A program made the position numbers and the translations under genes. A DNA stretch of 43,488 nucleotides from Corallococcus carmarthensis (GTDB lineage: Bacteria; Myxococcota; Myxococcia; Myxococcales; Myxococcaceae). Positions within the stretch are counted from its first letter, which is position 1. Every line of letters begins with the position of its first letter. Below the pieces are notes generated by a model that ran no database searches, was not told where the DNA came from, and saw only the letters and a list, made by a program, of their open reading frames with translations. Where the stretch lies: the NCBI RefSeq assembly GCF_003611695.1, contig NZ_RAWE01000069.1, forward strand, positions 1 to 43,488, in the 5' to 3' direction. Positions 19,266 to 43,488 of the stretch are shown in pieces.

Positions 19266-19331
19266 GACCCGGGAGTCTACGCGGACCGCCCCTGACTTGT
19301 CGGCGCTCCGCGACTAGGGCGTGTCCGCAAA

Positions 19332-19790
19332 TTAGAGCCAGAGGCGGATGGAGGCGATAAGGACCATCGCCAGGTAGTTGGCGGCGCGCTTCTCATAGCG
19401 CGTCGCCACCCGCCGGTTCTGCTTCAAGCGATTGAAGAGACACTCCACCCGGCAGCGCTTGCGGTAGGCCGCGCGCCGGAAGGCGCGCTGCCGGGGCTGG
19501 TTCGAGCGAGTGGGGATGATGGCGTGCACCCCATGTTCGCGGCACCAGGCGCGGAGGCTGGGGTAGCTGTAGCCTTTGTCCGCCGCGAGGGCGTCGGGCA
19601 AGCGGCGTGGCGCACCCGGCGAGTGAGCTCTCGGCACGCTGCCACCCGCCATCAGCGCCTCGAAGGCCTGCGTCTCATGGCGCTGACCTGCCGTCAGCTC
19701 GAAGACGAGCGGCCGCCCCTGGCCCTCCGCCCGGACGTGCAGCTTGGTAGAGAAGCCTCCCTGGCTGCGGCCCAGCGCTTCGGCCTCCCC
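19332..19790 (-). CDS. IS5-type transposase, C-terminal frame (orfB)
   Basis: The frame read after a -1 shift continues the transposase with GGFSTKLHVRAEGQGRPL and LTAGQRHETQAFEALM, then the second Asp in ADKGYS and the catalytic Glu in RCRVECLFNRLKQ. It ends with YLAMVLIASIRLWL. It has no good independent start before these conserved segments, so it is most likely made by ribosomal frameshifting from orfA. The join is at the A/G run around 19787-19797. Confidence 0.85.
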   Translation of the reverse strand, partial: GEAEALGRSQGGFSTKLHVRAEGQGRPLVFELTAGQRHETQAFEALMAGGSVPRAHSPGAPRRLPDALAADKGYSYPSLRAWCREHGVHAIIPTRSNQPRQRAFRRAAYRKRCRVECLFNRLKQNRRVATRYEKRAANYLAMVLIASIRLWL

Positions 19791-20152
19791 CCTTTTACCG
19801 GCGTGCCGCGTGCGCCGGCTGCGTGCTGGTGGGCTCGGATGACGCTGGCGTCCAGGAAGTGCAGCGTCCAGTCCAGGTGCTCATCCTCGTGCGCTTCGGC
19901 CTGCAACTGCCGCAGCACCCGCGCCCAGATGCCTGCCTCCTGCCAGCGGTAGAATCGGCTGCTGAGCGTCTTCCAACTGCCGAACTGCTCCCGAGGCACG
20001 TCGCGCCAGGGCGCTCCCGTGCGCAGCACCCAGAGGATTCCGTCGAGCACTTCGCGGTGCTCCTTGTTCGGACGGCCCCGCGCGGGTTTCTGGGGCGGCA
20101 GCAGTCCTACCAGCCGCTCCCATTGGGCGTCCGTCAGCTCTCCTCGGCTCAT
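19694..20152 (-). CDS. IS5-type transposase, N-terminal frame (orfA)
   Basis: 152 residues beginning MSRGELTDAQWERLVGLLP, the standard start of IS427-group transposases, through WRDVPREQFGSW, and containing the first catalytic Asp in FLDASVIRAHQH. After VKGGRPKRW the frame leaves the family pattern and soon stops, because the conserved continuation is in another frame. It is expressed alone or as part of the fused transposase. Confidence 0.88.
   Translation of the reverse strand: MSRGELTDAQWERLVGLLPPQKPARGRPNKEHREVLDGILWVLRTGAPWRDVPREQFGSWKTLSSRFYRWQEAGIWARVLRQLQAEAHEDEHLDWTLHFLDASVIRAHQHAAGARGTPVKGGRPKRWAAAREASLPSCTSGRRARGGRSSSS
19787..19797 (-). other. Probable -1 frameshift site in transposase
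   Basis: On the minus strand the sequence reads TAAAAGGGGGG, with codons AAA GGG GGG in the orfA frame. Slipping back one base on the G run keeps Gly-Gly pairing and enters the orfB frame exactly where the transposase pattern resumes. IS5/IS427 elements commonly use such sites. Not experimentally shown. Confidence 0.65.
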
Positions 20153-20243
20153 GCCCTCCTAACACCCGGCTCCGCTCGAACTATTTGCGGACACGTCCTA
20201 GACTCAACACAGCACCTGAATCACCAGAGGGGGAGGTCATCCA

Positions 20244-21425
20244 ATGCAGCAACACCTGGAGCCGCGTCCGGACTTTCGTTCGGAGAGTCACTCCCTGTCA
20301 GCACTGACGATGCTGCTGACGGAGCAATGCAACCTGCGTTGCACGTATTGTTACATCGACAAGAACGCCAAGCGCATGAGCCGGGAAACGGCGGAACGGA
20401 GTATCGACTTCCTGTTCGCGCATGCGGGCGACGAGAAGCAGCTCGCCATCTGCTTCTTCGGTGGAGAGCCCCTGCTCGCACCCGACCTGCTGGACTACGT
20501 CGCCACCGAGGCGAAGCGCCGGGCGAAGGAAGCCCACAAGGTGATGGTGTTCTCCATCACGACGAACGCCACCCTCCTCACCGAGTCACGTGTCGCGCTG
20601 CTGCAGAAGCACCGGGTGGGCGTCACCGTCAGCCTGGATGGCCTGCCCGAGGAGCATGATCGCCATCGCAAGCTCGTGAACGGCGAGGGCTCGTTCCAGC
20701 TCATCGAGCGCAACCTGGAGCGGCTGGTCTCCCTCTCGCCCACCATCCGCCTCACGGTGACGCCGGAGACAGCTCCCAGCCTCCAGAAGTCCGTCGCCTG
20801 GCTCGTGGAGCGCGGCCTGACGAAGATCTCTTTCTCGCCGGTGTTCGAAGCTGCCTGGGACGAAGAAACGCTGTCCACCTACTACGACGCGCTCGGGAGC
20901 CTCTACCGCTACCAGGTTGAAGGCCTGAAGCGGGACGCGTCCTACCGCGTGGGCAACCTGTTCAACCTCGAAGACGAGATGACGTCCGTGATGGGCCGCG
21001 GCTTCGGCTGTGGCGCGGCCCGCAAGATGGTGGCCATCGACGCGCAAGGCTTCATGTATCCGTGCCACCGTTTCGTGGGCTACTTCCGCAACGCGGAGGC
21101 CCAGCGCATCGGCCACGTGGCCTCCGGCTTCGACGTGGACCGCCGCGGCTACTACATCGAGAGCTGCCATCGGAGCACCCACACGGGCTGTGGCTCCGGC
21201 CTCTTCGAAGCCAAGGTCACCCCCGAGGAGAAGCAGTGCACGACGTGCTCGCTCTCGCCGGGTTGTGGCAGCGCCTGCATGGCCGTCAACGAACACATGA
21301 CGGGGGACCCGCGCAAGCCGGACCCCATCCACCGCGTCTTCTCCCAGATCCACGCCTCCCTCCACCTTGACCACCGCAGCGACCTGGTCCCCCTGCGTCT
21401 TCCCGCCCCGGAGCAACATCCATGA
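20244..21425 (+). CDS. Radical SAM/SPASM peptide-maturase-like protein
   Basis: A 393-residue enzyme. The radical SAM 4Fe-4S motif is CNLRCTYC (Cys29, 33, 36), followed by FFGGEPLL and TTNATLL, typical of the SPASM subgroup. The C-terminal SPASM region has Cys256 and Cys274, Cys308, and the block C332-x2-C335-x5-C341-x3-C345, expected to hold auxiliary Fe-S clusters. Relatives include sulfatase maturases and enzymes that form thioether or C-C links in ribosomal peptides. A strong ribosome site (GGAGGT, 20232-20237) precedes the ATG. The stop overlaps the ATG of a small Cys-rich protein gene (ATGA at 21422-21425), which suggests that protein is the substrate. No sulfatase gene is near. An IS ends only 45 bp upstream, so the native promoter is probably displaced. 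Confidence 0.9.
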   Translation: MQQHLEPRPDFRSESHSLSALTMLLTEQCNLRCTYCYIDKNAKRMSRETAERSIDFLFAHAGDEKQLAICFFGGEPLLAPDLLDYVATEAKRRAKEAHKVMVFSITTNATLLTESRVALLQKHRVGVTVSLDGLPEEHDRHRKLVNGEGSFQLIERNLERLVSLSPTIRLTVTPETAPSLQKSVAWLVERGLTKISFSPVFEAAWDEETLSTYYDALGSLYRYQVEGLKRDASYRVGNLFNLEDEMTSVMGRGFGCGAARKMVAIDAQGFMYPCHRFVGYFRNAEAQRIGHVASGFDVDRRGYYIESCHRSTHTGCGSGLFEAKVTPEEKQCTTCSLSPGCGSACMAVNEHMTGDPRKPDPIHRVFSQIHASLHLDHRSDLVPLRLPAPEQHP

Positions 21426-21718
21426 GTGATGAAAAGCCCAACGACAGTGAGCTGGCGAAGCGTCTCTTTGGACACCTGAAGCCCGACGAGATTCCCTCCG
21501 TGGAGCGGGTGCTCCGCGCGCTGCAGGTCGCCAAGGGCGTCAAGTTCCAGCTGAACCCGGAGAAGCTTCAGGCCCTGCGCACGCGGGAGCAGGAGCCCAT
21601 CCACGCCCTGCAGTGCCCGACCGATACAGACATCTGTATCTTGTGCGACTCCCCGAGGGACCTCTGCAAGCTGTGCGATACCCTGGACTGCGGTCCAACC
21701 TACCGGGACGTGGACTGA
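21422..21718 (+). CDS. Small Cys-rich protein, probable radical SAM substrate
   Basis: A 98-residue protein overlapping the radical SAM gene by 4 bp. Residues 1-63 are charged, probably helical and free of cysteine (PSVERVLRALQVAKGVKF), like a leader. The tail carries six cysteines at 65, 72, 75, 82, 85 and 90, spaced x6-x2-x6-x2-x4, with two similar units, DICILCD and DLCKLCD. The leader-plus-Cys-core layout and coupling to a SPASM enzyme suggest a precursor of a thioether-bridged peptide (sactipeptide or ranthipeptide type). Two CxxC pairs could instead bind zinc or Fe-S. There is no Gly-Gly cleavage site, and no protease or exporter is next to it. I do not recognise the family. Confidence 0.8.
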   Translation: MSDEKPNDSELAKRLFGHLKPDEIPSVERVLRALQVAKGVKFQLNPEKLQALRTREQEPIHALQCPTDTDICILCDSPRDLCKLCDTLDCGPTYRDVD

Positions 21719-21726
21719 CCGCCCCG

Positions 21727-21772
21727 ATGGAAGCCATCACCCGCCGCCGTAGGGCACGGTGATGGCTTCCAT
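21727..21772 (+). terminator. Perfect 15-bp hairpin after the Cys-peptide gene
   Basis: ATGGAAGCCATCACC (21727-21741) and GGTGATGGCTTCCAT (21758-21772) form a perfect 15-bp stem with a 16-nt loop, starting 8 bp after the peptide gene's stop. It overlaps the 3' end of the VOC remnant on the other strand, whose codons supply one arm. It lacks a T-tract but is an unusually strong structure and probably ends the radical SAM transcript. Confidence 0.7.
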
Positions 21773-21870
21773 GTCGTGGCCGCTGGGGTCCTGGAAGTAG
21801 ACCCCGCGGCCTCCATCCCCTGCTCCGCACGCGCTTGTGCATGGCTTCGTGCCGCACCGGGTTCCCCTTG
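21737..21870 (-). pseudogene. Remnant of VOC (glyoxalase-like) protein
   Basis: On the minus strand the last residues read GGRGVYFQDPSGHDMEAITV then PYGGG and stop, the characteristic C-terminus of VOC/glyoxalase-bleomycin-resistance proteins. Upstream the sequence (FARGTRCGTKPCTSACG) no longer fits the family and the rest of the gene is missing. It is therefore a 3' fragment left by rearrangement. Confidence 0.65.
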
Positions 21871-22059: not shown

Positions 22060-22240
22060 CCGCGGCCACAGCCACCGCAAAGGCATTGGCCAGCGTGGGG
22101 CGCCCTTCCTGCATCACCTGACACAGGTCCTTCCCCTCCAGCAGCTCCACCGTCAGGGAGTGCCGGTCCCCATCCGAGCCCACGTCGAAGACTTGCAGGA
22201 TGTTCACGTGCTCCAGGGCCCAGGCGAGCGGACCGCGGCG
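22060..22240 (-). pseudogene. Remnant of Ser/Thr protein kinase
   Basis: The minus strand encodes LEHVNILQVFDVGSDG followed by LTVELLEGKDLCQVMQEG, matching kinase subdomains IV-V (H-x-N-I-x-x-V-F-D-V-G and the hinge E-L-L-E-G). No ATP-binding loop, catalytic HRD or DFG segment is present on either side. The frame runs by chance into the VOC remnant, giving a 156-residue chimera starting at 22207 that is unlikely to be functional. The region between the remnants (about 21870-22060) shows nothing I can identify. Confidence 0.6.
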
Positions 22241-22311
22241 TCAAGGCCCCCACCCCACTGAGTCAAAAGTCGCCGCGAGGCGGGAAGCCCGGCGGCCTGT
22301 CGGAGCCCGGG

Positions 22312-22327
22312 ATGTTTCATGAGACAT
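22312..22327. promoter_or_regulatory. Imperfect palindrome before NRPS operon
   Basis: ATGTTTCATGAGACAT is a dyad centred on TCATGA, with symmetric outer ATGT/ACAT. It lies about 50 bp before the first NRPS start codon in an otherwise featureless leader, a plausible operator for a dimeric repressor or activator. No clear -10/-35 was recognised. Confidence 0.4.
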
Positions 22328-22376
22328 TCGCCGGGTTCTCAACGTTTTCATGCCCTCCGGGGCGATGATGGAAACC

Positions 22377-43488
<21,112 letters not shown>

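Follow-up and report, generated by a model that had tools for sequence, protein, structure and literature searches.

The adjoining papB-like and papA-like genes of Corallococcus carmarthensis form, with a probability of about 0.8, a two-gene unit of the freyrasin type, in which a radical SAM (rSAM)/SPASM enzyme would staple cysteines of a ranthipeptide precursor to aspartates. This reading is preferred because both proteins pass the cut-offs of curated family models, the pair recurs in Methylocystis, and nine cluster cysteines of the enzyme and six aspartates of the peptide are kept. Counted against it are the missing counterpart of the PapB cysteine C440, the CX3D spacing of only three of the six precursor cysteines, the lack of an adjacent protease or exporter, and a scan that found no promoter. 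The family is known already, as the freyrasin PapA/PapB ranthipeptides of Paenibacillus, and this copy is a new variant; the freyrasin-type family is known here from two pairs, this one and that of Methylocystis.

A PapA-like precursor would be made with a cysteine-free leader, and cross-linking would be repeated over the core to give up to six Cys-Asp thioethers, a change of minus 12 Da. The reaction would follow that of P. polymyxa PapB; the residue pairing, the recognition of the leader without an RRE and the fourth AC2 ligand at C316 are predictions from sequence. The predicted product is most likely a ranthipeptide with thioethers from cysteine to the beta-carbon of aspartate. It is possible, though on balance doubtful, that the pair represents a Gram-negative branch of PapB without an RRE, in which AC2 is completed through C316 in a SPASM insert and, in this strain, rings of CX3D, CX4D and CX5D are natively mixed in one peptide.

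The window, a stretch of 43,488 nucleotides of contig NZ_RAWE01000069.1, holds these features:

19317..20198, minus strand: IS4/5-family insertion sequence (near-terminal inverted repeats; identical copies elsewhere; transposase domains)
20244..21425, plus strand: papB-like gene for a ranthipeptide maturase of the radical SAM/SPASM type (393 aa, N-terminal RRE absent; NF047865, 404.7 bits)
21188..21241, plus strand: papB SPASM insert carrying C316 (about residues 316-332, borders approximate; from the C274-C332 distance)
21422..21718, plus strand: papA-like gene for a ranthipeptide precursor of the freyrasin family (98 aa; NF037957, 40.2 bits)
21614..21715, plus strand: precursor core, residues 65-98 (from Cys-Asp distances; six Asps kept in Methylocystis; predicted pairing)
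21727..21772, plus strand: hairpin 3' of papA (15-bp perfect arms, no T-run)

The gene pair and its family

Both open frames, papB of 393 and papA of 98 residues, are present and intact, and the papB stop and papA ATG share the four bases ATGA (21422-21425), which agrees with the 4-bp overlap between a radical SAM/SPASM gene and a 98-residue protein described in the initial annotation. A Shine-Dalgarno-like GGGGGAGG stands directly 5' of the papB ATG. No sigma-70-like promoter was found at the locus by a scan that covers this one promoter type. The neighbours of papAB are selA, the insertion sequence (IS) and an NRPS gene, with no protease or exporter gene directly adjoining, as first described, and no candidate gene for leader removal, export or biological role lies near the pair.

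The enzyme scores 404.7 bits against the NCBIfam PapB model (NF047865, cut-off 340), and the peptide 40.2 bits against the NCBIfam model of freyrasin-like ranthipeptides (NF037957, cut-off 30). Matches of the two proteins to two curated models above their cut-offs place the pattern beyond chance and bear out the proposed coupling of a SPASM maturase to a Cys-rich RiPP precursor; the suggested search against radical SAM peptide-maturase families thus leads to PapB, and the peptide, first taken as unrecognised and the mark of a possible new RiPP locus, belongs to the freyrasin family. PapB is the only maturase model that the enzyme passes in hmmscan: the SCIFF/ScfB model TIGR03974 gives 142.5 bits (cut-off 425), and the other models listed lie far under their cut-offs. 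In Pfam, Radical_SAM and Fer4_12 match the enzyme above cut-off. Its best match among solved structures is PDB 5WGG (E 1.7e-32), identified in a passage of PMC10470005 as the SCIFF maturase CteB.

The freyrasin-family peptide gene adjoins a PapB-family gene both here, through the ATGA overlap, and in Methylocystis. Wide occurrence of the small protein apart from a radical SAM gene had been named as evidence against a maturation pair; it was not observed, as each of the freyrasin-family peptides found (2/2) adjoins a PapB gene and no orphan copy was found, though this covers two cases only.

Cysteines and aspartates of the two proteins

The precursor consists of a cysteine-free leader (residues 1-64) and a core (65-98) with six cysteines at 65, 72, 75, 82, 85 and 90, so that the tail does have the reported spacing x6-x2-x6-x2-x4 and the two CxxC-D units, CILCD and CKLCD. 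Three of the six cysteines stand in CX3D motifs (C72-D76, C82-D86, C85-D89), short of the six such motifs of PapA. The other three have an aspartate at +5 or +6: C65 is accompanied by D68 (at +3) and D70, C75 by D76 (at +1) and D80, and C90, within seven residues, by D96. All of D70, D76, D80, D86, D89 and D96 are kept in the Methylocystis peptide, in a gapped alignment of two sequences with C90 offset by one column. Because these six aspartates are conserved with a canonical peptide, the alignment suggests that the partners are the same and that rings are enlarged by one or two residues; the most likely pairs would be C65-D70, C72-D76, C75-D80, C82-D86, C85-D89 and C90-D96. Of the two kinds of maturation first envisaged, thioether cross-links are likely, and nothing found points to Fe-S-related ones.

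The number of motifs is by itself not significant, as at least three CX3D occur in 20.7% of tails shuffled with the cysteines fixed. Full one-to-one Cys-Asp pairing at +4 to +6, a range picked afterwards, arises in 2.0% of shuffles. Shuffles of the Methylocystis peptide give 0/20,000 for the CX3D count and 0.1% for the pairing. Published evidence on ring-size tolerance is divided. Passages of PMC9413430 speak for it, as PapB tolerates n = 0-6 in vitro on a substrate with one motif (0 and 6 incompletely), with a preference for CX3D where a choice is offered; a passage of the review PMC8172795 speaks against it, stating that P. polymyxa PapB leaves a CX4D within full PapA unlinked.

In the enzyme, the SAM-cluster motif CX3CX2C lies at C29/C33/C36 and the SPASM motif CX2CX5CX3C at C332/335/341/345. 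The cysteines of AC1 (C256/274/345) and AC2 (C332/335/341) are spaced as published for P. polymyxa PapB, whose cluster cysteines are given as C119/123/126, C352/370/421 and C408/411/417/440 in a passage of PMC10470005. Nine of these ten have counterparts with the published spacing. The tenth, C440, 19 residues past the last CX3C cysteine, corresponds to R364, and there is no cysteine from there to the C-terminus.

An alignment of 38 rows combines this enzyme and the Methylocystis enzyme with 36 further relatives, of which 35 are distinct and several are near-copies. Cysteine occupies the fourth AC2 column in 36/36 of the others and is absent there in the two focal enzymes, which alone carry a cysteine in the C316 column. 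The distance from C274 to C332 is 58 residues here, 56 in Methylocystis and 33-42 in the 36 relatives, six of which have one cysteine within this interval and three more two or three, none in the C316 column. Relocation of the fourth AC2 ligand to C316 would be the simplest reading of the alignment; alternatively, AC2 may be open, or C316 may serve AC1. The AlphaFold model, built on a seven-row alignment, has a mean pLDDT of 68.1, with residues 311-343, which cover C316, below 50, too low for this cysteine to be placed. Mutation of PapB Arg372 abolished cross-linking, according to a passage of PMC9413430; its counterpart R276, two residues past C274, is also present in Methylocystis, and it is not specific because 18 of 27 relatives have arginine there.

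The first SAM-cluster cysteine is residue 29 here and residue 119 in PapB, which leaves about 90 residues fewer in front of it. With this position and an open frame of at most 401 aa, there is no room for an N-terminal RRE, the domain to which the leader is expected to bind in P. polymyxa PapB (a passage of PMC9413430). It is not unusual for wider relatives to lack an RRE: 15/36 have the first SAM-cluster cysteine within the first 41 residues. Because the NF047865 model, of 330 positions, takes in rSAM and SPASM only and leaves the region of the N-terminal RRE outside, PapB members without an RRE may be commoner than is visible here. The genome also has two PqqD-like frames, on contigs other than this one, which would be candidates for an RRE acting in trans. 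SPASM maturase-like proteins at L013-L023 in Myxococcota genomes (245-286 bits for PapB, below cut-off) have longer N-termini, with the first SAM-cluster cysteine at about residue 99-126.

Distribution, insertion site and alternative readings

Both papA and papB are single-copy in their own genome, where other peptide matches have E values of at least 0.5 and the other two enzyme matches are below cut-off. Among 195 Myxococcota genomes, the freyrasin family occurs in one and PapB above cut-off in one, both times this genome; 22 others have SPASM relatives below the PapB cut-off with E 1e-40 or better. A search of 145 genomes from the order gives one match to the peptide elsewhere (E 9e-5, over 39 leader residues), at L005, rejected on inspection as the frames there are implausible as a precursor. 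Against 72,556 plasmid records the peptide has one match, in Methylocystis iwaonis, with an E value (0.2) that is weak alone. It has no Pfam match.

In the phylum of genome G196, 2/400 genomes match the freyrasin family, both below cut-off. Peptide matches at L091 and L092 were rejected as well, being below the family cut-off and in frames implausible as precursors; these loci span 2.0 and 3.1 kb, and an rSAM gene further off is possible. The freyrasin family is found in 0/398 genomes from the phylum of G198, a result that shows little as controls were likewise unmatched. In G198, SPASM maturase-like frames at L048 and L050 are broken by 4-5 TAG codons, and TAG may be recoded in this genome. 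Viral contigs yielded no relative with the enzyme alone as query and, with a two-row profile, five distant relatives that served in the alignments only; 121 phage records hold rSAM relatives, the best 8 of 121 at 27-29% identity.

Counting this strain, 16/16 genomes of the genus retain selA. Flanks were compared in eight of the 15 others, and none has a stretch longer than 80 bp that aligns to papAB. Window positions ~21737-21817 correspond to the 3' terminus of a glyoxalase-like gene and are conserved in 6/8 of these genomes: L069, L072 and L075 have the stretch about 27-70 bp past the selA flank, whereas in L071, L074 and L076 it lies at a distance of 1.6-4.1 kb. In L070 a later stretch alone (window 22069-22229) is retained, and L073 has selA, then about 170 bp, then the NRPS cluster at 94% identity. 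The intact neighbour gene in L072 encodes 126 aa and is glyoxalase-like, with a score just below the Pfam cut-off. In the window only the 3' terminus of this gene is left, so the site has been rearranged.

On this comparison, papAB and the IS appear to have been added in this strain; the alternative, that all eight genomes lost them, is less simple. The pair was probably acquired by horizontal transfer, because it is present in this genome alone among the 195 of Myxococcota and absent at the site in the eight relatives compared. GC content is 65.0% in papB, 62.6% in papA and 71.1% in the window, but composition alone shows no transfer because two other window genes have 63.8 and 64.7%. The IS, between selA and papB, is an element separate from papAB. 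Its transposase is read in two frames, with the DUF4096 and DDE parts separate, and the genome has two 100% identical copies elsewhere (G000, C3 and C59) and several fragments at contig ends. The idea of papAB as cargo of the IS was rejected, as different genes flank the copy at C3 and neither papA nor papB has a second copy. Membership in the NRPS cluster was rejected too: in genome G057, about 170 bp without papAB separate selA from the NRPS stretch (window 22296-38698, 94% identical). From window 22350 onwards lie NRPS genes with condensation, adenylation and carrier domains, which adjoin selA in G057.

The hairpin behind papA has perfect 15-bp arms (21727-21741 and 21758-21772), the right one within the 3' remnant of the glyoxalase-like gene. 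The structure reported there in the initial annotation is real (MFE z -3.84; 0/200 shuffles as low), but the label of strong terminator is not borne out, as no T-run follows and the terminator scan, whose loop limit is shorter than the 16-base loop, does not list it. It is not a canonical intrinsic terminator and may stop or protect the transcript.

The IS ending 45 bp before papB, the negative sigma-70 scan, the three cysteines outside CX3D and the restriction of the pair to this strain among related genomes would also suit a transferred freyrasin pair in decay, non-working or partly working, with drifted spacing, a lost AC2 cysteine and the IS as steps. Such decay is unlikely, given intact frames, ATGA coupling, a Shine-Dalgarno-like site and conserved partner aspartates, with a promoter scan of one type only. 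Decay of this copy does not account for the absent AC2 cysteine or for the insert with C316, because both traits recur in the distant enzyme of Methylocystis, which is paired with a canonical peptide (7/7 CX3D).

Compared with a working Cys-to-Asp stapling unit, a RiPP maturase pair with another linkage, either alpha-carbon thioethers (sactipeptide) or non-Asp acceptors, has a slim chance: SPASM maturases of several chemistries score for the enzyme in the same hmmscan, and its AC2 ligand departs from P. polymyxa PapB, but PapB is the sole model passed, and the residues conserved with Methylocystis are aspartates, not hydrophobic or Thr acceptors. The reading of the small protein as a metal binder (e.g. 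of zinc) that stays unmodified beside an unrelated rSAM gene, as its two CxxC pairs could suggest, is very improbable in view of its freyrasin-family match, the ATGA overlap, the pairing repeated on an alphaproteobacterial plasmid, and the absence of a Pfam match or convincing PDB relative (best E 0.89).

Comparison with known systems

Among the titles and passages covered by a literature search, none was recognised as reporting a freyrasin-type pair from myxobacteria or a PapB without an RRE. P. polymyxa PapB is in use for stapling designed peptides (a passage of PMC9413430), and a passage of PMC10470005 describes the function of its second auxiliary cluster as unknown. A natural branch with other cluster ligands and no leader-binding domain would allow a direct test of the role of AC2, of leader reading and of native ring-size tolerance. 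The remaining interest lies in a variant enzyme common to two distant Gram-negatives and in unequal ring spacing.

The SCIFF maturase CteB/ScfB (PDB 5WGG) shares rSAM and SPASM with this enzyme, but has an N-terminal RRE (a passage of PMC8326336) that is lacking here. Freyrasin PapA/PapB of P. polymyxa is alike in a precursor gene adjoining that of a SPASM enzyme, in Cys-Asp pairs and in nine cluster cysteines spaced alike (a passage of PMC10470005). It differs in the six CX3D motifs of PapA (a passage of PMC9413430), against 3/6 here, and, compared by published residue numbers, in about 90 further residues in front of the SAM cluster, in an expected RRE and in C440, all absent here, and in 38 residues where C274 and C332 are 58 apart.

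The nearest relative found is the plasmid pair of Methylocystis iwaonis, WP_281932655.1 and WP_350356532.1. Both its proteins pass the same two families, NF047865 and NF037957, and the peptide, annotated as freyrasin family, directly adjoins the enzyme's best plasmid match. The two enzymes cluster at 97/91 in a 27-row tree, and the placing of this group among the other rows is uncertain because of the long branch of the Methylocystis row. Identity is 37% for the enzyme and 32% for the peptide. The Methylocystis genes are 4 bases apart, whereas those here overlap by ATGA, and its peptide has seven cysteines, 7/7 in CX3D, against six and 3/6 here; gene order is the same, and its enzyme, like this one, is without an RRE, lacks the C-terminal AC2 cysteine and has the insert with a C316 counterpart.
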